Shown piece by piece: positions 1,574-11,438 of a stretch of 64,000 bases of DNA. This DNA comes from Nitrospirota bacterium (GTDB lineage: Bacteria > Nitrospirota > Nitrospiria > Nitrospirales > Nitrospiraceae), in the NCBI GenBank assembly GCA_030684575.1, contig JAUXVD010000004.1:1-64000 (forward strand), read 5' to 3'. Numbering within the stretch: position 1 is the stretch's first letter; each line of letters starts with the position of its first letter. Made by a program: the position numbers and the translations under genes. The notes below the pieces were generated by a model. That model was not told the origin of the DNA. It did not search any database and saw nothing but the letters and a program-made list of their open reading frames with translations.

Positions 1574-2421
1574 ATGCCGACTTTGGCCGCTACGTGTCGG
1601 GTGTTGATCCAAGCCTCCATCGCCTGTTCGAAAACTACTTCTCCTTCGATGGAAATTGGGCTGATTTTGAAAACACCCTTGCGCATCTCGACGTTGATCT
1701 CATACTTGACGAAGCGTCCGCTTCCTTTGTTCCATATTCTGCAGACTATTGGAGCGATGCGTTTCATCATGACTACCAGTATGAGATAGATCGCATCGTC
1801 AGTTCGCTATCGGAGAAATTAAAAAGACGATTCACTGAATGGATCTGTCGACTGACCATTCCCAGCCCATCCTCTTTCCAAATACCGTTGCTCGACCTCC
1901 CGTTGCATGCGCTGTATCTAACCTTCAATTACACGAATACGCTTCGGAAACTCTACGATGTCTCGTCTAGCCGCATCACCTACATTCACAACTATGCCGC
2001 CGGTCCTGACTCTGATCTGGTACTTGGGCATGGCATCAATCCCAAGACGATTGCGTCCCTTAATGCTCGCGCCGATCTTGAAGATCAAGACACGCGCGTT
2101 ACGCAGGCGAACGAATGCATCGACGACTACTTCTCCAGAACCTACAAGCCAACTGATCGCGTTATTTCAGCCCATCAAGATTTTTTCGATTCTCTGTCGG
2201 ACGTCAAGCGCATTTGTGTTCTTGGGCACTCACTCTCTGAGGTGGACTGGCCGTACTTCGCACTGATTGCAGCAAAAACCAAGGCGTCCGACCCGCACTG
2301 GATTGCCTCTTATCACGATGAAACGAAGATTCCTCTGATGAAAAAGGCGTTTTTCGAGTTCGGCTTACCGGCCGTAAAAGTCACGTATGCACGCATCACC
2401 GACATCCATCCTGAAACCTAA
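1574..2421 (+). pseudogene. AbiH-family abortive-infection protein, 5'-truncated by IS3
   Basis: The frame is open from the IS3 end to the TAA at 2419-2421 (about 280 codons). It carries AbiH hallmarks: an N-terminal W-A-D-F-E-N-T segment, L-T-F-N-Y-T-N-T-L-R-K-L-Y in the middle, I-H-N followed by L-V-L-G-H-G-I-N, and I-C-V-L-G-H-S-L-S-E-V-D near the end. AbiH proteins confer abortive phage resistance by an unknown mechanism. The missing N-terminus would hold the family's nucleotide-binding-like G-N-G-F-D motif, so this copy is probably dead unless an internal start (for example 1594) gives a partial product. The stop codon lies inside an attC-type core (ACCTAAC), as in integron cassettes. 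Confidence 0.8.
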
Positions 2422-2480
2422 CCCTGCGTTCGAGGCGACCTGCACGAAAAGCCGCACAGGCGCCTCATTGAAGGTGCATC
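2416..2480 (+). other. Degenerate attC-like site after the AbiH fragment
   Basis: ACCTAAC at 2416-2422 fits the integron core consensus RYYYAAC and includes the AbiH stop codon. The next bases, TTCGAGGCGACC, can pair with GGCGCCTCATTGAA at about 2457-2470 with extrahelical bases, as in an attC hairpin. No good GTTRRRY second core follows, and the HNH reading frame runs straight through the right half. The site therefore appears fused to, or truncated by, the neighbouring cassette. Confidence 0.45.
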
Positions 2481-2793
2481 AAAGACAGTGGCTGTCAACA
2501 CCTATGAGCGTAATGCGGAAGCAAGGGCTAAGTGCATCAAACATCACGGCTATAGATGTGCCGTATGCAAGTTAGATTTTGCTGTGATCTAAGGCTCAAT
2601 TGGTGACAAATACATCCACGTTCACCATGTAATCTGGCTTTCGGAGATCGGACGGGAGTACGTTCTGAATTCGATTAAGGCCCTCGTGCCTGTCTGCCCG
2701 AACTGCCACGCGATCAATCATCGCACTAGACCAGCCATGTCAGTAGAGCAGATAAGAAGGCACTTGGAAGAGAGAAGTGGCAAAGACATATAA
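2431..2793 (+). pseudogene. HNH endonuclease gene with nonsense mutation and lost 5' end
   Basis: One frame encodes an HNH nuclease C-terminal part. It has V-N-T-Y-E-R-N-A-E-A-R, C-A-V-C for the first zinc pair, V-H-H for the catalytic His pair, and V-P-V-C-P-N-C-H-A for the second zinc pair and the last catalytic H. Homologues normally have a Tyr in the 'F-x-x-x-Y-G-x-I-G' stretch between the zinc pairs. Here that codon is TAA (2590-2592), most simply TAT or TAC changed to TAA. No start codon or N-terminal domain is found upstream, where the frame enters the degenerate attC. The family includes restriction-type and defence nucleases. The frame ends with TAA inside the next attC core. Confidence 0.8.
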
Positions 2794-2859
2794 CCAGTTG
2801 CTCCATCGGACGCCAAGAAGGCTAGCGCCTTTTTGGCGCCGCTGAGTTTCGCGTTAATG
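2788..2859 (+). other. attC-like recombination site (cassette end 1)
   Basis: An imperfect palindrome of about 72 bp starts at ATATAAC, which includes the HNH stop codon, and ends at GTTAATG. The inner arms pair well: CGGACGCCAAGAAGGC against GCCTTTTTGGCGCCG, with mismatches and a short loop. Outer core sites deviate from RYYYAAC and GTTRRRY by one or two bases. Position directly after a stop codon and overall fold match integron attC sites. Confidence 0.65.
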
Positions 2860-3162
2860 CGACAGGGCTGAGGCCCGCTTTATGGCGGTGCGATCTCGGC
2901 GCCGAACTTCTGCACTCTGGCCGACACTTGCCTGATGCCCTTACAGGCAAATCACGACCCAAACCAGATGTACACGACTGACCGCTACCAGAGGGGGACT
3001 TACGCCGATCCGCATAAGAGCCCGTGATCGATGATCGATGGGCCGTCACTCATTGCACCACCGTCGATGATGGGATATTGTTCACGATCATTGAAGGTGT
3101 GTTATGCGGATAGAAAATAGCAGATCCGGTTCTTATATGGATCCGCCTGAACATTGTTATCC
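2853..3162 (+). repeat. Non-coding spacer block, copy 1
   Basis: From the attC core the sequence continues with GCGACAGGGCTGAGG and a conserved stretch holding the palindrome TCGGCGCCGA, and ends at CTGAACATTGTTATCC. A second block at 4833-5087 has the same start and end but a different middle, and a third start lies at 11371. No credible ORF is present. The block may be an ORF-less cassette or a shared cassette leader. It contains the inverted-repeat element at 3004-3147. Confidence 0.6.
3004..3147. mobile_element. Small inverted-repeat element, copy 1 (MITE-like)
   Basis: The left arm GCCGATCCGCATAAGAGCC (3004-3022) pairs with a right arm at 3128-3147 that has a few changes. The decamer TTATGCGGAT occurs at 3103-3112 as a direct copy, inverted within the left arm, and degenerate in the right arm. 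A second, better-conserved copy is at 9430-9571. No ORF is inside. The repeated TTATGCGGAT units could be recombinase-binding sites of a non-autonomous element, but that is inference. Confidence 0.55.
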
Positions 3163-3198
3163 GGACCCTATGGGGCGACGGTTTGAGGAAGCGCCACT

Positions 3199-3720
3199 GT
3201 GGAGATAAACACCCTCTCGGTCGTCATTGGCATCATCGTTGGTGTCGTCACGATTGTTGGTGCCCTCAGCGGGGCATTCAAATGGCTTTGGCAGAAGCTG
3301 GTCGGGTTCTTGAAGGGCAGCGACGAGCTTGCGCTCAATGTACCCAAGAAGACGCTCATCATCCTGCCTAAGGCGGACGGGAGGTCGTGTTGGTGGCACA
3401 TGGGGGCAATGGCCCAGAAGCCAGCCATGCAGATTGTCGCTCGATACACGGTCACCAACATGACCAAGATCGGGATCGTACCCACGGTTGCCAGGATGCG
3501 AAAACCCAAGTCACTCGGCCACGTAATGGTGCGCGACATCAATTCGCAGATGCACGGGGCGTTCGTGATCCCGCCAGGAGAGTCGACAGACCTCCACCTA
3601 GACTTCTGGATCGTGCCTCCTGTTCGGAAAAAAGGCGAGACCTTCATCACCGACGTTGCCGTCTTGGATCAGTTCGGCAACGAGCACTGGATTCGCCGTG
3701 TCGAGTTTGCATATCAGTAG
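3199..3720 (+). CDS. Cassette gene: N-terminally anchored protein of unknown function
   Basis: A 173-aa protein starts at GTG with GAGGAA eight bases upstream. Residues about 6-28 form one hydrophobic segment (V-V-I-G-I-I-V-G-V-V-T-I-V-G-A-L), a membrane anchor or uncleaved signal. The rest (about 45-173) is soluble and predicted rich in beta strand, with no recognised catalytic motif. It ends with F-A-Y-Q just upstream of a well-formed attC site, so it is a gene cassette. Its context among AbiH, SIR2 and AIPR genes makes a defence role possible, but nothing in the sequence proves one. I do not recognise the family. Confidence 0.75.
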   Translation: MEINTLSVVIGIIVGVVTIVGALSGAFKWLWQKLVGFLKGSDELALNVPKKTLIILPKADGRSCWWHMGAMAQKPAMQIVARYTVTNMTKIGIVPTVARMRKPKSLGHVMVRDINSQMHGAFVIPPGESTDLHLDFWIVPPVRKKGETFITDVAVLDQFGNEHWIRRVEFAYQ

Positions 3721-3750
3721 TCAAGCCATGAGCGCCAATAGCGCCGGGCC
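3721..3750 (+). other. Short spacer between cassette gene and attC
   Basis: Thirty bases separate the TAG from the attC core. No other feature is visible. Confidence 0.4.
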
Positions 3751-3846
3751 GGATAACAACGGCTTGCACCAGACAGGGCGCGGAGGTGCGGCCGCTTCGC
3801 GGCCGGTCGTTGAGGCGCGCCCTGCAGGTGAAGCCGGGTGTTAGAC
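3751..3846 (+). other. attC recombination site (cassette end 2), best example
   Basis: This is the clearest attC in the window, at 96 bp. The outer core GTTAGAC (3840-3846) fits GTTRRRY exactly and the left core is GGATAAC. The next boxes, GGCTTGCACC and GGTGAAGCC, pair except for one unpaired G, the extrahelical base that directs IntI to the bottom strand. Inside, GGGCGCG pairs with CGCGCCC, and GGCCGC with GCGGCC around a TTC loop. The single-strand fold, spacing and core sites all match established integron attC architecture. Confidence 0.85.
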
Positions 3847-3865
3847 TCAGGGAACGGGTCGTGTA

Positions 3866-4747
3866 ATGGGAAGCCGTTACTATAGCGAAAGACTTGCAGG
3901 CAAGGCACCTCGGGAGGACGAAACGATCTCGGCCGCCTTCTGGGGCGGCTTCGTCGCGTTTGTAGAATCTCGGTCCCGAGACGGCTGGTTTGCCGAACGC
4001 TATCCCAGCCACTGCTTCGAGGCACCTCTTCCGGTAGAAACCGATGCGTCCGCCCTTGGCGCAGCATTCGCGGCGCACAATCCACGAGTTCCCTGGCCGC
4101 TCGACGGGCGGACCCCACCTGATACGCTTGAGGTTTTGGACTCGGTCGAGTTCTTCGCCCAGATCGTGTCGATGCCAACAAGTCGGACCTACCACGATTA
4201 CGGGAAGCACAACCACATCACTGCCTTCGATCCGGAGAGCGGCTTCGCCAAGTTTCAGCGGGAGATCAATACAATGCTCCGGCGATGCGGTCATCCCTAC
4301 GAACTCGATTCAAGTGGCGAGATCCAGCGAGTAGGCCCGCCTGTCCTGCGGGATGAGCTTGCATCGGTCTTCGCGAGTGGTGACACCGAACTTGATCACC
4401 TTCTCGCTATTGCCTGCCTGAAGTTCAAGCATCCAGACTGTGAGGTCAGAAAGGAGGCGCTGGAGAAGGTCTGGGATGCTTGGGAACGCCTCAAGACCAT
4501 TCTTCCAGGTGACAAGAAGACTAGCGTTAAAGCTCTTCTCGACTCTGCGGTGGTTGAGCCCACGTTCCGTGAACGTATCGAGCGAGAGGCTCGGGAACTT
4601 ACGGAGATTGGAAATACGTTCATGATTCGGCACACGGAGACCAGCAAAGTTCCGATCGAGAACAGTCACCACGTTGACTACCTCTTCCACCGGATGTTTG
4701 CCCTGATCCTTATGGTCTTGCGCGTTCGACGAGGGACCTGTGTCTAA
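3866..4747 (+). CDS. Cassette gene: unknown 293-aa protein
   Basis: The 293-aa soluble protein has no signal peptide. The first half has aromatic-rich segments (F-W-G-G-F-V-A-F-V-E, W-F-A-E-R-Y-P) and a Y-H-D-Y-G-K-H-N-H stretch around residue 110. The C-terminal 130 residues look helical, with T-E-I-G-N-T-F-M-I-R-H-T-E-T followed by H-H-V-D-Y-L-F-H-R-M-F-A-L-I. That tail loosely recalls the Abi-C domain of abortive-infection-like proteins, where an R-H pair precedes a helix. This is a weak resemblance and I assign no function. The start ATG has AGGGA about 12 bases upstream. The TAA stop lies in a perfect RYYYAAC core, so this is a cassette gene. Confidence 0.75.
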   Translation: MGSRYYSERLAGKAPREDETISAAFWGGFVAFVESRSRDGWFAERYPSHCFEAPLPVETDASALGAAFAAHNPRVPWPLDGRTPPDTLEVLDSVEFFAQIVSMPTSRTYHDYGKHNHITAFDPESGFAKFQREINTMLRRCGHPYELDSSGEIQRVGPPVLRDELASVFASGDTELDHLLAIACLKFKHPDCEVRKEALEKVWDAWERLKTILPGDKKTSVKALLDSAVVEPTFRERIEREARELTEIGNTFMIRHTETSKVPIENSHHVDYLFHRMFALILMVLRVRRGTCV

Positions 4748-4839
4748 CCTGCCGCTGCATCCGACGAGCGGTGCGGCCGCCGAGACCGGATCTGAGCTGT
4801 TGTGCGCGCCGCTCGCGGCTGAGCGGCAAGGCGTCAATG
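4742..4839 (+). other. attC recombination site (cassette end 3)
   Basis: GTCTAAC (4742-4748) matches RYYYAAC exactly and contains the stop codon of the preceding gene. CTGCCGCT and CGACGAGCGG pair with CCGCTCGCGG and TGAGCGGCA on the other arm, with bulges. The right core reads GTCAATG, one transition away from the GTTAATG of cassette end 1. Folded length is about 98 bases. Confidence 0.75.
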
Positions 4840-5087
4840 CGACAGGGCTGAGGATCGCATTGTGGCGGTGCGATCTCGGCGCCGAACTTCCGCACTTGGC
4901 CGAACTGTGACCGTCGTCATGCGACCCAAAGCCGAAATGCACGACCGACGGCTATCAGGTGGTCCAATCGAATGACGGCGCCGTCGGTTCCCGCACGGTG
5001 TAAAAGAACAAACTTTCACAGCACTGCGGGCACCTAACGGTACTGCTGAAGAAGGATTGTCTTTAAGGCAAACTGAACATTGTTACC
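4833..5087 (+). repeat. Non-coding spacer block, copy 2
   Basis: The block begins with the same bases as 2853-3162 (ATGCGACAGGGCTGAGG, then GGCGGTGCGATCTCGGCGCC) and ends CTGAACATTGTTACC. It retains the internal CACGACCGACGGCTATC segment but lacks the TTATGCGGAT inverted-repeat element. ACCTAAC at 5032-5038 and GTTACCG at 5082-5088 could be degenerate core sites of an attC for the reversed SIR2 gene, since GTTAGGT on the minus strand fits GTTRRRY. The pairing between them is weak. Confidence 0.55.
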
Positions 5088-5093
5088 GCTGTC

Positions 5094-8000
5094 TCAGGTT
5101 TCGTTAGTTCCTCCGCTTCTCTCATATCGTGCCCAATATGCTTGCAAGCGTCGGAAGCCTGAATCTGAAGATAAACTGGACTCTGTTGAACTGATTTGGT
5201 CCAAACAGGTTTTCAGATCTTTGGCTGGCCATGGATCATGTTCATCCACAATTGCAATGAGCAGAGATAGGGACGCCAGGGGATATTTTGTCGCAAGACC
5301 CGATTCAGCAAGTTCGCTTAGTGGTAGGTAAAAGTTCTTGGTTTTAATCAAGAACGGCATCAAAAATGCCACTGCCTCAGGGAAAAGTGACCGGGCGAGA
5401 ACACAAATCCTCGCTAAAGCAGTCGATTCATGACTGGAACGCTTATCATATGATTTTGGCCAGATTGACTCAATGAGAGGCTTAACCCGGTTACTCCAAT
5501 ACTCTTCACTCCGATCCTCTGCGCCCTCAAGAGACCGTACCAACATCACAGCCGATTCAGCTAACCCTTGTTTAGGCAAGGCATTGAACGCCTCTCTCAA
5601 TTCATTTGTCATGAAATGCTGACCTAGCTCCAGTGCTGCCACTGTGAGCAGGGAAGCGTATTGCGAATCGTGTTTCCCAAGATCAGGGTAATGGTGAGCT
5701 GTCGCGAGAAAAGAACTCTTAAATGCATCCAACAATTCAGCACTTAGCCGTGGTGTCCATAAATAACCTTCCCATACTCCCTTCGCCTCAACCGGATTGG
5801 TGTCCCAGTTAAAAACTGGCAGCAACATTTGCGTGGTCCATACCGGGTCACCTGAGTATAGGGATCTGAGATGTGCAGCCATGATGACCCGACCATGAAC
5901 GTACTCCCTTGGCTGCGGATCGAAGAGTCGTGTTAGTCTAAGTTTAATGGGTTCAGGCAATCCTGAATCAACCGCTGGCTCAGTCTGATACCAGAAGTCG
6001 AGGAGAGCCTCCGTGGCTTGCCCAACAGGATTGTTGATTGCAGCATGAACAGGCTTACCATCTGAAACGTCATCAGTAGCATACTCCAAGATCTTGTCGA
6101 GGAGCTGAAACCATAATTGATGTGAAGATGACGGTACCTGCCTCGCTAACCTCTTGAGCCACCAACCATAGGCGTGCTTGAGGTTGGAGTATGTATCTAT
6201 GGGCACCTGAAGCAGGGACGGTCCAATCTCGCTAAGGCTCGTCAAACCAATTTCACTCTCAGCAAACACCTGCAATGCTACTCGCCATACACCAGCATTC
6301 CAGATCCCATTTTCTCCGAGAATACGAATTGCTGCCATTGCCTTATCTGGAGCGGTTTGACAGATATCTTTCCAATCATCTTCGTACCAATGATCATCGA
6401 CAGGGCGAGTCTTGAGTGCGTTCACCAACTGTTCATGTTGTCTCGGCAAAACGATATGAGTCCTAAAACTTCTTCCTGAACCAGATTCCATCCGATAGGG
6501 AAATTGGTCTTGGTCATCTGGTGAAAGCTGCCATTGTGGAAATCTACCGGAAATTGCGGCAAGACGTTCCTTTGCCTTACCCGTCATTTCAGAACCCGTT
6601 GTTTCCCATATTTTCAATCGCAACCAAGTCTTACGGTCCACTATCCCACTCCACTCTTCATCCTGGAGGTCTTCGCGATACATGCTCCGCGGTGGCCCAG
6701 CCAAGATAACCTTGCAGAGTTCACTCCTCTGAGAAGCATCAAGCCTGGCAACTAGATGTATTAGCAGGCGCAGTGATTCTCTCTGAGTTTCAGGTGACCA
6801 CAACCACTGAGCATTATCCTGCAACAAGAATTTTAGTCCCTGTGTGTGGTTGATAAGGGGAGATTCTGTTGCAACGTGGAAGACCAGCCTTTTGAAGAGC
6901 GGGTATTTGATCAGATTCCATCTCTCCAATTCAGACTCTGCCAGAGTAGGCGCACCCGTTGATGTTGATAGCCATGCATCTCGACAAATTTTGATCAGAG
7001 CAGTCCAATCATGGAAATTATTATTTTGAGGATGGTCAGATATAGATGGACGGGCGATGTATGAAAGGTCGCTTTGCCAGGAAACTTCACCCAGCTCGGC
7101 CATTAGATCCAAGGCTTCTTGCAGGCATGTCGTAAATTCAGAAAGTGAGTCAATTGCCAGCTTAGGCCAGTCAGTGCACTCTTTGATCTCGTTCAGTTTT
7201 TCCCAGGGAGATTCTCCGATCCGAAGACATATTTCCCAACTAGCGTAGTCCCCGGCTAGTTTTGCTCTAAGGCGATCTCCTTGATCCTCCTCGCCATTTT
7301 CCCGTTGCGCGTCCCACTGTAATGGCTCCCTGAGTCCCACAATGGGACGAAGCATCTGCGACAACTCTCGTTTTAGAGAAACACTCCAACCAAACCGCTT
7401 GAACCGATTGCACCAACGATAGAGAGACATTGAAGAATAATTCCGCATGCTCGTCGCGAGTCCAGCACAAATCAATCTCCAGATCAAAGCAAGAGGCCCA
7501 GAAATCCGAGGAGGATCGGCAATCAGCTCCCGGGTTACCAATTCTCTAAACTGTGGATGGAGTAAACAGCCACTCTTGATGACCCATGTAAGCACCTTCT
7601 GTTGGTCAAGATGGCGGCATATCCATCTTGCGATATGCCCCATCACCTCGTCTAAACGAGGCGCAAGGAAATCAGCATCTGCGAGTGACACAAGCGCCAT
7701 GTTGGAATTGTTATTCTGTGGCGCTGGACGATTTACTAAAGAAAATGATTTCACATCTTCGATAGAAAATGGCTTTGTTACCCCAAGGCTGGAGAGATCG
7801 GATATTTTGAATCGTGACTCTGCAAAAACGTCGAGCCATTCAACCGGCGGTATAGGATCTAGATCGGCAAAGGCCTTAGTCACCGTTGGATCCATCAAAG
7901 CCCAGATTACTCGATCAACCTGACCATCACTTGCATTGGGTGAAGGAGGCATAACGGCTTCACGGGCTATGATGGCTCGCTTGCCAGTCATTCCGTCTCG

Positions 8001-8861
8001 GTATAGTCCTGCCCATTCAAAAAGAGTCTTGTGCAACAGATCATGGCTTCCAGCTTCGCAATAGAGAATGGGAACAACTCCTTTGGCTTGCCAATCTCGT
8101 TTATCTGCGTCCTCGCGTCCTTCCCTGAAGGGAGCAAACGCAAAGACATCGTCCGATTCTTCTCCAAGAATCCTGTCTGCCGCGAGTGCATCAAGCATAT
8201 ATCTGAGGACTGGATCGCCGAGGCTATATCCCACAAAGCAGACGACATAATTGCGAAATAGCTCTGTAACAAATCGGCTAGCCCAGCGCTCGGTAAGATA
8301 AGCCAGACCAAAGTCCCCACTTGATACGACGAGGCTATTCAGTGCTGTCGGATCATTGTCTTTCGGAAGCAACCCATGAAGATGAACAAGGCCGTTCCAT
8401 CGGCTTTTCTTTGGTATTGGGAGTAAGGGAGCAGCATACGGCATCAGGGAGGGGTCCACTTCGAGAAAAATTCGATCGAAGTTTGTTGTAACTACTCTCA
8501 GAGAATTATCTTTTGACTTTCCTAGCGTGAGAATGGCCTTGTGAGTATTTGTTGAAATGGGATTCGCCAGGTCTGGCGGAGTGAGGATGGTCTGAATCTT
8601 TTCACGGACCATCGGACGATTCCTGATTCTTCTTTCCAGCAGATCAATAGCCACATCAAACCGTTTTTCCTCAAAAGCTGCCTTTTCAGTAGAATTAAGG
8701 TCCTCGCCAAGATCCTCAAAAAGTCTTCGAGCAAGCCCCTCGAAACCCGGCAATCCCGCTGGATACGAAATGCCTGCACCGCAAAAGAAAACGACCTTAC
8801 CATCCTCATGAGACTCCACCAATCGGTCAGGAACCTCGGGGCCGCCTTTAATAAATCGCAC
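5094..8861 (-). CDS. SIR2-family defence protein, large (DSR-like)
   Basis: A 1255-aa protein with an N-terminal sirtuin-type NAD-binding domain (about residues 15-260). It has F-F-C-G-A-G-I-S (25-32), T-T-N-F-D (125-129), V-H-L-H-G with the catalytic His at 162, and G-Y-S-L-G-D near 215. The following 1000 residues are long, helical and Trp-rich with no enzymatic motif, like the C-terminal sensor regions of defence-associated sirtuins (DSR1/DSR2) and DUF4020-type SIR2 proteins. Such proteins detect a phage component and destroy cellular NAD+. GTG start with GAGG ten bases upstream. The gene is visibly more AT-rich than its neighbours and runs against the cassette direction, both signs of separate acquisition. 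Confidence 0.85.
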   Translation of the reverse strand: MRFIKGGPEVPDRLVESHEDGKVVFFCGAGISYPAGLPGFEGLARRLFEDLGEDLNSTEKAAFEEKRFDVAIDLLERRIRNRPMVREKIQTILTPPDLANPISTNTHKAILTLGKSKDNSLRVVTTNFDRIFLEVDPSLMPYAAPLLPIPKKSRWNGLVHLHGLLPKDNDPTALNSLVVSSGDFGLAYLTERWASRFVTELFRNYVVCFVGYSLGDPVLRYMLDALAADRILGEESDDVFAFAPFREGREDADKRDWQAKGVVPILYCEAGSHDLLHKTLFEWAGLYRDGMTGKRAIIAREAVMPPSPNASDGQVDRVIWALMDPTVTKAFADLDPIPPVEWLDVFAESRFKISDLSSLGVTKPFSIEDVKSFSLVNRPAPQNNNSNMALVSLADADFLAPRLDEVMGHIARWICRHLDQQKVLTWVIKSGCLLHPQFRELVTRELIADPPRISGPLALIWRLICAGLATSMRNYSSMSLYRWCNRFKRFGWSVSLKRELSQMLRPIVGLREPLQWDAQRENGEEDQGDRLRAKLAGDYASWEICLRIGESPWEKLNEIKECTDWPKLAIDSLSEFTTCLQEALDLMAELGEVSWQSDLSYIARPSISDHPQNNNFHDWTALIKICRDAWLSTSTGAPTLAESELERWNLIKYPLFKRLVFHVATESPLINHTQGLKFLLQDNAQWLWSPETQRESLRLLIHLVARLDASQRSELCKVILAGPPRSMYREDLQDEEWSGIVDRKTWLRLKIWETTGSEMTGKAKERLAAISGRFPQWQLSPDDQDQFPYRMESGSGRSFRTHIVLPRQHEQLVNALKTRPVDDHWYEDDWKDICQTAPDKAMAAIRILGENGIWNAGVWRVALQVFAESEIGLTSLSEIGPSLLQVPIDTYSNLKHAYGWWLKRLARQVPSSSHQLWFQLLDKILEYATDDVSDGKPVHAAINNPVGQATEALLDFWYQTEPAVDSGLPEPIKLRLTRLFDPQPREYVHGRVIMAAHLRSLYSGDPVWTTQMLLPVFNWDTNPVEAKGVWEGYLWTPRLSAELLDAFKSSFLATAHHYPDLGKHDSQYASLLTVAALELGQHFMTNELREAFNALPKQGLAESAVMLVRSLEGAEDRSEEYWSNRVKPLIESIWPKSYDKRSSHESTALARICVLARSLFPEAVAFLMPFLIKTKNFYLPLSELAESGLATKYPLASLSLLIAIVDEHDPWPAKDLKTCLDQISSTESSLSSDSGFRRLQAYWARYERSGGTNET

Positions 8862-8942
8862 TAGGATCTCGCCTCAATGAACAAAGCTAATAGGCTAGGA
8901 AGTATACGTCAGAATGATTAGATCAGAAAGGAGGGCGTTCTT

Positions 8943-9080
8943 GTGCAAACAGTCGTGAGAGCGAGGAGATCGCTTAGTTTTGCCCCAACGGTCACTGATG
9001 TGGTTACGCAGATCTTGATAACCAAGCGGCTGTGCGGATTGGAGTTAGCCGCCTGCACAGTCGCCCCAAGTTTCAATTGA
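8943..9080 (+). CDS. Possible 45-aa small protein
   Basis: A GTG-initiated frame starts seven bases after a near-perfect ribosome binding site (AAAGGAGGG, 8927-8935) and ends at TGA 9078-9080. The peptide begins M-Q-T-V-V-R-A-R-R-S-L and has no recognised domain. It is divergent from the SIR2 gene. The strong site is the only support; it could be a peptide linked to the SIR2 gene or chance. The rest of 8862-9400 shows no convincing gene. Confidence 0.25.
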   Translation: MQTVVRARRSLSFAPTVTDVVTQILITKRLCGLELAACTVAPSFN

Positions 9081-9384
9081 CTCCATATGGGTATGAGCGG
9101 GGCCATGAGTATCTTCCCCTATCTTTTCAGTGGTTTGATTTATTGACGGTGCAAGTCGAATTCTTGATTCACATGATTTCGAGAACTTACGGAACGACAC
9201 TTGGGCAGCTTTTGTGGACGCCGACACGAGGTTAGGTAACTGTTCTACGACCCTCCTCAGACCCAATCCAGCCAAGCGTAGCGTGAAGCGCGCACAATCT
9301 CTAATGAACGGCAGCTTTCCGGCGCGGGGATTGCCTTAGCGACTGTCGCAAAGTGGCCGTTCTTCGACCATCGGTATCCGACCC

Positions 9385-9587
9385 TGAGCCGACGTCCACG
9401 ACCGACGGCTACCGGAGGGGGGATCTTACGCCGATCCGCATAAGAACCCGTGATTCATGGGCGCCCAGTCGCAACGCATTGAAACGGCAGCAACTATGGC
9501 GTATTGTTCACGAACCGTAGTGGTGTGTTATACGGACAGAAAATGCAGATCCGGCTCTTATGCGGATCGGCCTAAACGTAGTTAGGC
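9385..9587 (+). repeat. Non-coding spacer block, copy 3 (right half)
   Basis: The segment CACGACCGACGGCTACCGG (from 9397) matches copies at 2970 and 4937. It is followed by the inverted-repeat element and then CCTAAACGTAGTTAGGC, which parallels CTGAACATTGTTA at the ends of the other two blocks. The conserved GACAGGGCTGAGG start is missing here. Confidence 0.5.
9430..9571. mobile_element. Small inverted-repeat element, copy 2 (MITE-like)
   Basis: The left arm GCCGATCCGCATAAGAACC (9430-9448) and right arm GGCTCTTATGCGGATCGGC (9553-9571) are nearly perfect inverted repeats, about 104 bp apart. A third unit TTATACGGAC lies at 9524-9533. Layout and inner sequence (TATTGTTCACGA, GGTGTGTTAT, CAGATCCGG) match copy 1 at 3004-3147. 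No ORF. Confidence 0.65.
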
Positions 9588-9618
9588 TGCACCACAACTT
9601 TCATACCGTCCGGCCATC

Positions 9619-11316
9619 ATGAGCATAATTCACGTCAATCAGATCAAGAATCAGGTCGTGCGGCTCTTTGAGTCCTTGGTTGACTTGAGCGATCTAGGAA
9701 GCCCACCCGCTGAAATTCGGGAGGCCTTCTTTCTTACGCGTGGTCTGGCTGCATACGCTATCCACTACCTCTCAGGATCTACTCCGGCAGACGCAGCTGG
9801 CGCCGTAACGGATGCCGGCAACGACAATGGCCTCGATGCCATTTACTTCGACGAGCCGAACAAGCGACTCTATTTAGTACAGTCCAAGTGGATTAAGGAT
9901 GGCTCCGGTGAGCCTAATAACGGGGAAATCAAGAAGTTCGTTGCGGGTGTACGCGACCTCGTCAATCTGCGATTTGACCGCTTTAACCCGAAGATAGCCG
10001 CGAAGCAGACAATCATTTCTGCTGCGCTGAATGATCCCTCGACACGCTACGAGGTGGTTGTAGCACACACCGGTGCTAGCCGCTTGGCTCCCCCTTCGAT
10101 GCGCGACCTCGAAGACTTGGCCGCCGAGTTCAACGATGTCAGCGAAGTGCTATATGTCAGCGTGCTGAACCAGGCGGAGCTTCACAAGTCGCTAACAGCT
10201 GGAATTGCGGGGGAACCGATCAACCTCCAGATCGGAATAAAGTCCTGGGGGCGGAAGGATACCCCGCATGAAGCCTACTACGGACAGGTCTCGGCCGACC
10301 AAATCGTTGCCTGGTGGACGCAATACCGCCAGCGTCTCTTTGCCAAGAATCTGCGCAATACGCTCGGCGAAACCGATGTTAATGTGGAGATGCGACAAAC
10401 AATTGAGCAAACCCCCAGTTTGTTTTGGTACTTTAACAACGGGATCACGATCCTAACGAAGAAGGCTACTAGGCCCATGGCTGGCGGTGCCGGCAATGAC
10501 TTTAGTATCTTCCACTGCGAAGACATTAGCGTTGTAAACGGAGCACAAACCGTCAGTACAGTCGGAAAGTCCGGCGAAGCCAATCCCACGAGCGCTAAAG
10601 ACGTCTACCTTCCTGTACGAATCATCGTACGCGGGCAAGACGACTCATTCGCAGCCGACGTCACCCGTACCAACAATCGCCAGAACAAGATCGAAAACCG
10701 AGACTTTGTCACTTTGGACCAGGAGCAAACGCGAATCCGCACCGAACTAGCGATCGACAACATCGATTACCAGGTGCTACGAGGGGACTCTGTGCTTCGA
10801 GCTGAAAGTGCTTTCGACCTCGTGGACGCGACTACTGCCCTTGCATGTGCCTCGGGTGCTGTCCGGCTCGCCGTCCAATTGAAACGCGAGATCGGCAAGC
10901 TCTGGGACGACATCTCAAAGGCGCCATATCGCGAGCTTTTCAACGCGTCAGTGGTAGGTATTCATGTATGGCGGTGTGTTCAACTCCAGAGAAGAATCGA
11001 TCGGGCTATCGATGGTTACGTAAAGCGAGTCAATTCCTACAAGGACTATGGCCTAGTAACCCACGGCAATCGCATCATTGCAACCCTCGCCTTCGAGGCA
11101 CTCGCTGTTCAGCGCTTCAAGGAGCCCGCATTCGACCCGATTGCTACGATCACCGATGAGGCAATCATCGCTCTCGTGGATGCCCGGGTCAAGATTCTGA
11201 GCGATCTCCTCGAAAAACACTACCCCACTTCCATTATCCCAACATTGTTCAAGAATCTGAAGAAGTGTGAGCACTTGGCGACAGAAGCACGGAAGGTACT
11301 CGCAGCTGCAGCCTAG
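9619..11316 (+). CDS. AIPR-family abortive phage-infection protein with nuclease-like N-terminus
   Basis: This 565-aa protein has the AIPR signature: L-F-W-Y-F-N-N-G-I-T-I-L (about 268-279) and S-V-V-N-G-A-Q-T-V-S (about 302-311), then T-N-N-R-Q-N-K-I with aromatic residues. The N-terminal 110 residues resemble a PD-(D/E)xK nuclease fold, with G-L-D-A-I-Y-F-D (Asp73) followed by L-Y-L-V-Q-S-K (Gln88-Lys90) as the Q-x-K active-site variant. AIPR proteins are linked to abortive phage infection (AbiR-like) and restriction-like islands. ATG start without an obvious Shine-Dalgarno sequence. The TAG stop lies inside a GCCTAGC core, so it is the last clear cassette. No partner gene is adjacent. Confidence 0.87.
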   Translation: MSIIHVNQIKNQVVRLFESLVDLSDLGSPPAEIREAFFLTRGLAAYAIHYLSGSTPADAAGAVTDAGNDNGLDAIYFDEPNKRLYLVQSKWIKDGSGEPNNGEIKKFVAGVRDLVNLRFDRFNPKIAAKQTIISAALNDPSTRYEVVVAHTGASRLAPPSMRDLEDLAAEFNDVSEVLYVSVLNQAELHKSLTAGIAGEPINLQIGIKSWGRKDTPHEAYYGQVSADQIVAWWTQYRQRLFAKNLRNTLGETDVNVEMRQTIEQTPSLFWYFNNGITILTKKATRPMAGGAGNDFSIFHCEDISVVNGAQTVSTVGKSGEANPTSAKDVYLPVRIIVRGQDDSFAADVTRTNNRQNKIENRDFVTLDQEQTRIRTELAIDNIDYQVLRGDSVLRAESAFDLVDATTALACASGAVRLAVQLKREIGKLWDDISKAPYRELFNASVVGIHVWRCVQLQRRIDRAIDGYVKRVNSYKDYGLVTHGNRIIATLAFEALAVQRFKEPAFDPIATITDEAIIALVDARVKILSDLLEKHYPTSIIPTLFKNLKKCEHLATEARKVLAAAA

Positions 11317-11377
11317 CCCGCGCTTGAAGCTGACGAGGGCGTAAACGCCTCAGCAGCTTAAGGGCAGTTCGTTAAGG
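11311..11377 (+). other. attC-like recombination site (cassette end 4)
   Basis: A short attC of about 67 bp starts at GCCTAGC, with the AIPR stop codon inside, and ends at GTTAAGG. The arms GCTTGAAGCTG plus GAGGGCGT pair with ACGCCTC plus CAGCAGCTTAAGGGC around an AAA loop, with unpaired bases between boxes. It is followed by the same GCGACAGGGCT stretch seen after cassette ends 1 and 3. Confidence 0.7.
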
Positions 11378-11438
11378 CGACAGGGCTAAGGACCGATTTA
11401 TGGCGGTGTGATCTCAGCGCCGAACTTCCGCTCAGGCG
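11371..11438 (+). repeat. Non-coding spacer block, copy 4 (left part)
   Basis: GCGACAGGGCTAAGGACCG, then TTTATGGCGGTGTGATC and AGCGCCGAACTTCCGC, align to the starts of blocks at 2853 and 4833 with a few substitutions. The similarity fades after about 11438, where the array seems to end. Confidence 0.6.

Follow-up and report, generated by a model that had tools for sequence, protein, structure and literature searches.

What built the row of defence-family genes at the left end of a contig from a Nitrospirota bacterium of the family Nitrospiraceae, where genes run into hairpin sites laid out like the attC sites of integron cassettes and no integrase gene is in view? The contig (JAUXVD010000004.1 of assembly GCA_030684575.1) is contig C4 of the source genome, here G000 (3.79 Mb in 23 contigs, 99.84% complete), and its first 64,000 bases (G000:C4:1-64000) are the whole stretch analysed, which we refer to as the window. 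Other G-numbers denote related genomes, C a contig, and L followed by three digits (e.g. L019) an extracted locus. The original prediction saw in positions 2416-11377 a CALIN-type array, that is, a cluster of attC sites lacking integron-integrases. From comparison of the sequences, we would now read the region as a row of short integrons without integrase, each composed of a putative attI site, cassettes and a 3' conserved segment, and we give this reading a probability of roughly 0.88.

Each unit in the row runs from attI through one or two cassettes with their attC sites to the 3' conserved segment, and its ends are defined by two noncoding repeats. The left repeat, L, extends from CGACCCAAAGC to CCTAAACATTGTT, and its approximately 48 copies are alike up to a GTT and divergent beyond. 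The right repeat, R, opens at the GTTAATG that belongs to the last attC, and it closes in CCGCACTTGGCCG, the 3' conserved segment being GTTAATGCGACAGGG..TGGCCG; its approximately 46 copies start where very different attC sites end, and it is present in 25 of 121 relatives. In 36 complete units L lies ahead of R on the same strand, usually with one or two genes between them (median 1.46 kb), and 54 of the 66 open reading frames (ORFs) in these units are on the array strand. The window contains three units, the first of them in part, all on the forward strand. Unit 1, whose attI falls outside the contig, is closed by an R at 2853-2923 (91% to L019:15048-15120). Unit 2 opens with a predicted attI at 2955-3158 (left end CGACCC, crossover GTT at 3156-3158; 88% to the copy on contig C8) and closes with an R at 4833-4902 (89% to the C8 copy), beyond which a left-end fragment without the attI core lies at 4922-4957 (90% to L019:9845-9884). 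The predicted attI of unit 3, at 9379-9583, is conserved as far as its crossover GTT at 9581-9583 (78% to the C8 copy), and the unit ends in an R at 11371-11431 (87% to the C8 copy). With at least two attC sites and no intI nearby the region is formally a CALIN, and to that extent the earlier description stands; it is neither a single array nor a bare attC cluster (which the formal definition does not require), but several units, each complete one with an attI and a 3' segment to itself.

The integrase is missing from the genome as well as from view. The window begins at base 1 of contig 4, so that nothing to the left of its edge exists in the assembly, and no intact intI scored above the cut-off anywhere in G000. 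What this genome retains in cis is one relic of approximately the last 50 codons (C8:644028-644318), next to one of the six copies of attI in the genome; in this relic the catalytic tyrosine is gone because MISMHVLN replaces the MIYTHVLN of intact enzymes; relic, shortened attI and one cassette with its attC follow each other over C8:644028-644710 (L192 4028-4710). Likewise, only the 3' end of intI is kept directly upstream of L in G013, G018, G023 and G026. A survey of 175 genomes of the family, 114 of them of good quality, found attI in 104 (73 of the good ones), any IntI (E 1e-60) in 21 and the cognate IntI, defined by an identity of 76% or higher, in about nine. This deficit does not in general come from gaps in the assemblies, since G059, a genome in a single contig, contains attI twice and R twice and is absent from both IntI lists. 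Because intI relics adjoin the same attI in G000 and its relatives, the lack of an integrase is a secondary state, and the units are best read as platforms that were built by IntI and outlived it. In our reading, a Nitrospiraceae-type IntI, read towards attI, recombined attI with attC and so placed the cassettes at the GTT, as the anatomy of the sites shows, and the integrase gene was lost later, leaving relics in G000 and, at various lengths, in relatives. With the integrase lost, cassettes would move only if IntI came from elsewhere, and the many copies in many genomes, with their sharp common ends, suggest that the units probably move or duplicate as blocks by some process.

The same relics, lying as they do against attI, could also be what is left of an ordinary CALIN, in which one ancestral chromosomal array lost intI, was split up through rearrangement and is now inherited vertically, so that the repeats are debris. 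Decay of this kind is visible in the window in an HNH pseudogene, a degenerate attC and an insertion sequence (IS). This is the alternative that survives best, and we nevertheless find it unlikely, since it must contend with 36 units that each have their own attI and 3' segment in a fixed order, with near-identical units in different contexts, and with the presence of several copies per genome as a common condition across the family.

The preferred reading, a row of integrase-less integrons, depends on the identity of L, and here the genomes that still carry an integrase are informative. Six genomes (G016, G072, G080, G213, G203 and G135) have an intact intI that leads straight into L-type sequence of approximately 170 bp. 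In G016, G072 and G080:C78 it begins 12-20 bp after the end of intI, with the CTAA..GTT crossover at a near-constant distance downstream; the intI genes of these three match TIGR02249 with 450-463 bits, the G080:C78 copy having one TGA inside the match. The integrase match in G203 is partial, and its adjacency to the L-type sequence is as in G213 and G135. Integrases adjacent to attI are 82-85% identical to the G016 IntI, and intI reads towards attI in the intI-bearing relatives, G000 itself not being among them. G019 has an attC array headed by a different intI (59%); this array ends in R and is followed immediately by an L without intI. On these comparisons, L is an attI. Were it instead a palindromic repeat, or a cassette that is noncoding, with a GTT at its end by chance, its long internal inverted repeats would be explained, as would the R-L blocks, which have a GTT at either end as a cassette without an ORF does. 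That L comes next after intI in six species, at a near-constant distance, would not be; moreover, the inverted pair in L is a simple one (CCTAAAC..GTTAGG), preceded by direct repeats, and no attC hairpin ending in R', and our attC covariance model gives no match on L. We regard this alternative as very improbable.

Slightly less credible still is a scenario in which an IntI encoded elsewhere acted off target and put cassettes into secondary sites, one of the proposed origins of CALINs (PMC8618304). It would suit cassettes without a linked intI, and no attI is visible for the AbiH, C1 and C19:104463 cassettes; the conserved attI before most first cassettes speaks against it.

The inserts themselves, judged by their attC sites and by their first bases, are true cassettes. 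The covariance model, R1, was trained on 26 attC sites, all from genomes other than G000, in which 9 of 11 predicted inner-stem pairs show compensatory, two-sided change. Run over the window with filters off, R1 returned as its five top matches exactly the five sites that had been proposed from their layout, one of them as degenerate, all on the forward strand: 2788-2859 (31.6 bits, E 5e-5), 11311-11377 (26.4 bits), 4742-4839 (24.5 bits), 3751-3846 (23.6 bits) and, in fifth rank, the degenerate site of the AbiH cassette at 2416-2480 (19.6 bits), whose R' box is ATTGAAGGT where GTTAGGT is expected. The sixth-best match reaches 14.9 bits, below all five. The attC sites are real. Folded as bottom strands, 2788 and 3751 (z -6.9) are clearly better than shuffles, and 4742 and 2416 weakly better. 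Across the rest of G000, R1 also finds sites at C14:1460, C8:124258, C8:126994, C1:330, C19:104463 and C8:644650. A finder of our own design, combining box motifs with an inner stem, was dropped for the covariance model because of an excess of false sites, and an Rfam scan of the window at gathering thresholds gave zero matches.

A cassette that enters as a circle starts with seven bases that pair to the R'' box of the attC it carries. This was examined at four variable positions in each of 55 cassettes whose upstream site is an attI or another attC. Cassette start and own R'' agree at 171 of 220 positions, compared with 133.9 +/- 4.2 (maximum 151) in 10,000 shuffled pairings, and the match is perfect in 31 of the 55 cassettes (shuffles: mean 9, maximum 17). 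Some upstream sites were assigned automatically and may be wrong, which could only weaken the signal. All three window cassettes with an upstream site match at four of four variable positions: GTTATCC with GGATAAC for the gene at 3199, GTTAGAC with GTCTAAC for that at 3866, and GTTAGGC with GCCTAGC (attC 11311) for the AIPR cassette. A plain defence island with hairpins that are chance structures or terminators, which the clustering of defence genes in the window and the presence of Dsr1 without attC might suggest, is refuted by the location of the five best attC-model matches in 64 kb, all at gene ends, and by cassette starts that match their own attC far above shuffles.

How cassettes and units differ between genomes can be seen where two copies are closely similar. 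The unit of L, OLD cassette and attC on G000:C8 shares 2432 of 2470 bases (98.5%) with that on G002:C273, ungapped and from CGACCC exactly, and the left and right flanks of the two are completely different. Compared with G002, the G000 unit has one extra cassette of 2.7 kb exactly at the GTT crossover of the attC1/R junction, and by inspection the R segments differ at two bases. That the genes are mobile as cassettes, as had been supposed, is borne out by this pair. In G022 the left flank is that of G002 (112 of 112 bases, at a contig end), followed at CGACCC by a different unit. Thus, cassettes differ at the GTT and whole units at their CGACCC/TGGCCG ends. The ends were also compared with the terminal inverted repeats of a MITE-like, non-autonomous transposon: when one of the two end consensuses is inverted they match at 18 of 27 positions, an imperfect agreement that was reached by 2 of 200,000 shuffles. 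A palindromic dispersed repeat of approximately 170 bp lies outside both unit ends in G036:C7 (L109 around 3100-3200 and 4840-4930) and recurs near other attI copies in G202, G212 and G148.

The C8 unit lies in an island beside a tRNA-Lys-like gene (identified by reading), with a copy of the gene's 3' end upstream and a tyrosine recombinase, so that island transfer may be a further route of movement. The island (G000:C8:121500-131500; L019 9500-19550) encodes a recombinase of 353 amino acids and carries the attI-OLD-nSTAND3/Mrr unit; G017 has the island backbone in common with G000 C8 at 90%, with a different upstream part.

Several results weigh against the row of integrons as we describe it. 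The attC at 11311 folds no better than shuffles (z -0.5). A scan for the cassette promoter Pc, restricted to sigma-70-type sequences, gave matches at chance level among which none stood out. Most of the surveyed genomes are drafts or metagenome-assembled genomes, in any one of which intI might lie inside a gap. Finally, a joined-flank search for empty sites of whole units found none contiguous, in 79 genomes for the G036 unit and 100 for the G002 unit, and no target-site duplication was seen by eye at the listed outer ends of units. It is because of these last two negatives that block mobility is an inference from the shared unit ends, and we call the movement of whole units likely. A tentative extension, which we favour less than its contrary, is that the units are mobile, non-autonomous integrase-less integrons with terminal repeats, whose slot is reloaded with defence cassettes only when IntI is available elsewhere in the cell or population; if this were true, one enzyme would capture cassettes and another would move the platform, both of them encoded elsewhere.

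Family matches indicate that the cargo of G000 is mainly single-gene phage defence. By raw count, defence families, known or candidate, are matched by six of its approximately ten cassette genes (AbiH, PDC-S32, AIPR/AbiU, OLD, PDC-S73 and AbiU2). Outside the window, these are a nuclease of the OLD family and an nSTAND3-Mrr protein with a match to PDC-S73, both on C8, and a HEPN AbiU2 protein on C14; a further cassette, at C8:644, carries a small gene that by reading is lipoprotein-like. The 39 cassette genes of relatives include, on the defence side, PDC-S15, Lamassu-type LmuA/LmuB and restriction-like proteins, and among the others metabolic genes, with matches to peptidyl-arginine deiminase, NAD-binding and methyltransferase families, and a group II intron protein. 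A cargo of mainly abortive-infection genes, as was first proposed, holds for G000 and not for the family, and a platform that carries defence genes only was rejected on account of the relatives' mixed cassettes. In G031:C234 (L113 4191-8253) a three-gene block with LmuA/LmuB matches forms a single unit, with attI on one side and just one attC on the other, and in G069:C3 (L107 4695-6038) a group II intron reverse transcriptase/maturase lies within an integron unit.

The genes first listed for the window (AbiH, HNH, AIPR and a reversed SIR2 gene) are all present, two of them damaged. The cassette of unit 1 is an AbiH gene (1594-2421, forward; PF14253, 167 bits, 1.2e-48, profile 52-260 only) that has lost its N-terminus to an IS3-family element at 327-1575 on the reverse strand (orfA 1222-1512, orfB 365-1225; terminal inverted repeats 327-355/1547-1575; HTH_Tnp_1 and rve matches). 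The IS also cuts a UvrD/Rep helicase fragment at the left end of the contig (129-347, forward; PF00580, 32.7 bits). A further attC array, at G000:C1:1-400 (L189), runs into IS3-like sequence at the contig end, and repeats of integrons or of IS elements lie near the left end of each of the contigs C1, C4 and C14. The HNH endonuclease gene (2491-2793, forward; PF01844, 22.5 bits on its 3' part) is a pseudogene with an in-frame TAA at 2590. Two forward-strand genes of unit 2 had been put forward as candidate new defence genes. The first, at 3199-3720, encodes 173 amino acids of no assigned family, with zero Pfam or PADLOC matches and a low-confidence single-sequence AlphaFold model (an N-terminal helix and strands; predicted local distance difference test, pLDDT, 51), and relatives of this gene are found without a detected attC. 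The second, at 3866-4747, is already listed as the candidate defence protein PDC-S32 (PADLOC PDLC04995, 156 bits, 3.9e-46 over 5-285); its single-sequence AlphaFold model is poor (pLDDT 40), and a short-peptide search of 84,980 species found no relatives of PDC-S32. Unit 3 carries an AIPR/AbiU-like gene (9619-11316, forward; PF10592, 5e-28; PADLOC AbiU, 101 bits).

The SIR2 gene, counted earlier as part of the array, lies outside any cassette. It is a full Dsr1 (5094-8861, reverse; 1255 amino acids; PADLOC Dsr1, 1146 bits), rejected as a cassette since it has no attC and lies on the opposite strand. It sits reversed between dispersed noncoding repeats at 4884-5008 and 9256-9359, the latter within a repeat upstream of attI (9136-9359, forward) that has matches in G019, G066, G031, G017, G012 and G003. 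Because both flanking repeats are present approximately 716 bp apart in G017:C70, the Dsr1 slot looks exchangeable, though not via attC. Junction repeats ending TGGCCG..CGACCC (the two window repeats and L193 11740-11900) flank both Dsr1 and a DnaK-like/AAA gene block (C8:320-328 kb), and cargo that lacks attC looks to be exchanged at such points.

Comparison with described systems sets the Nitrospiraceae units apart in several respects. The IntegronFinder 2.0 survey reported no more than two CALINs for the phylum, each from Ca. Nitrospira inopinata; that program seeks attI for class 1 only, and its authors describe attI as poorly characterized outside class 1 (PMC9024848). The units resemble CALINs of that survey in having attC-delimited cassettes and no intI nearby, and differ in keeping attI and a 3' segment, many per genome and family-wide (PMC9024848). 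In the Shewanella prophage M16-3 CALIN an attI likewise stands ahead of an integrase-less array, as a single case adjoining a complete integron, whereas in Nitrospiraceae this is the usual state, in more than 100 genomes (PMC9892861). Treponema chromosomal integrons share an intI read towards attI and cassettes, and its loss leaves static arrays; there each genome has one long array, in contrast to the many Nitrospiraceae units, which contain one or two cassettes and have 3' segments and end repeats (PMC3607928). Class 1 integrons also hold cassettes between 5'- and 3'-conserved segments, and attI can lie inside their arrays, as in delta-attI-type cassettes; the Nitrospiraceae 5' segment lacks intI, the 3' segment is unrelated, and the attI-cassette-R units are in tandem (PMC12901181). 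Single-gene phage-defence systems are also known in general as integron cassettes of other bacteria, in another phylum and on a platform other than the one that has lost its integrase here; the islands and the integron of Vibrio cholerae are discussed in PMC12409362. We found no paper on this Nitrospiraceae platform, in a search that left most subscription journals and preprints outside its range. The array first noted is real, and there is more to it than was noted: an integron platform that spans the family, lacks an integrase and has an attI and a 3' segment that belong to it.

Integrase-less integrons are usually regarded as static debris, and to our knowledge attI is hardly ever sought outside class 1. 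Here an attI family, defined via its cognate integrase, occurs mostly without that integrase and in repeated short units, of which some have probably moved in recent times. The platform makes it possible to test whether orphan units are still filled in trans, and by what route they spread. Several of the cassette genes of these nitrifiers match known or candidate phage-defence families, and attI together with the 3' segment provides a search key for uncharacterised cassette genes in nitrifier genomes.

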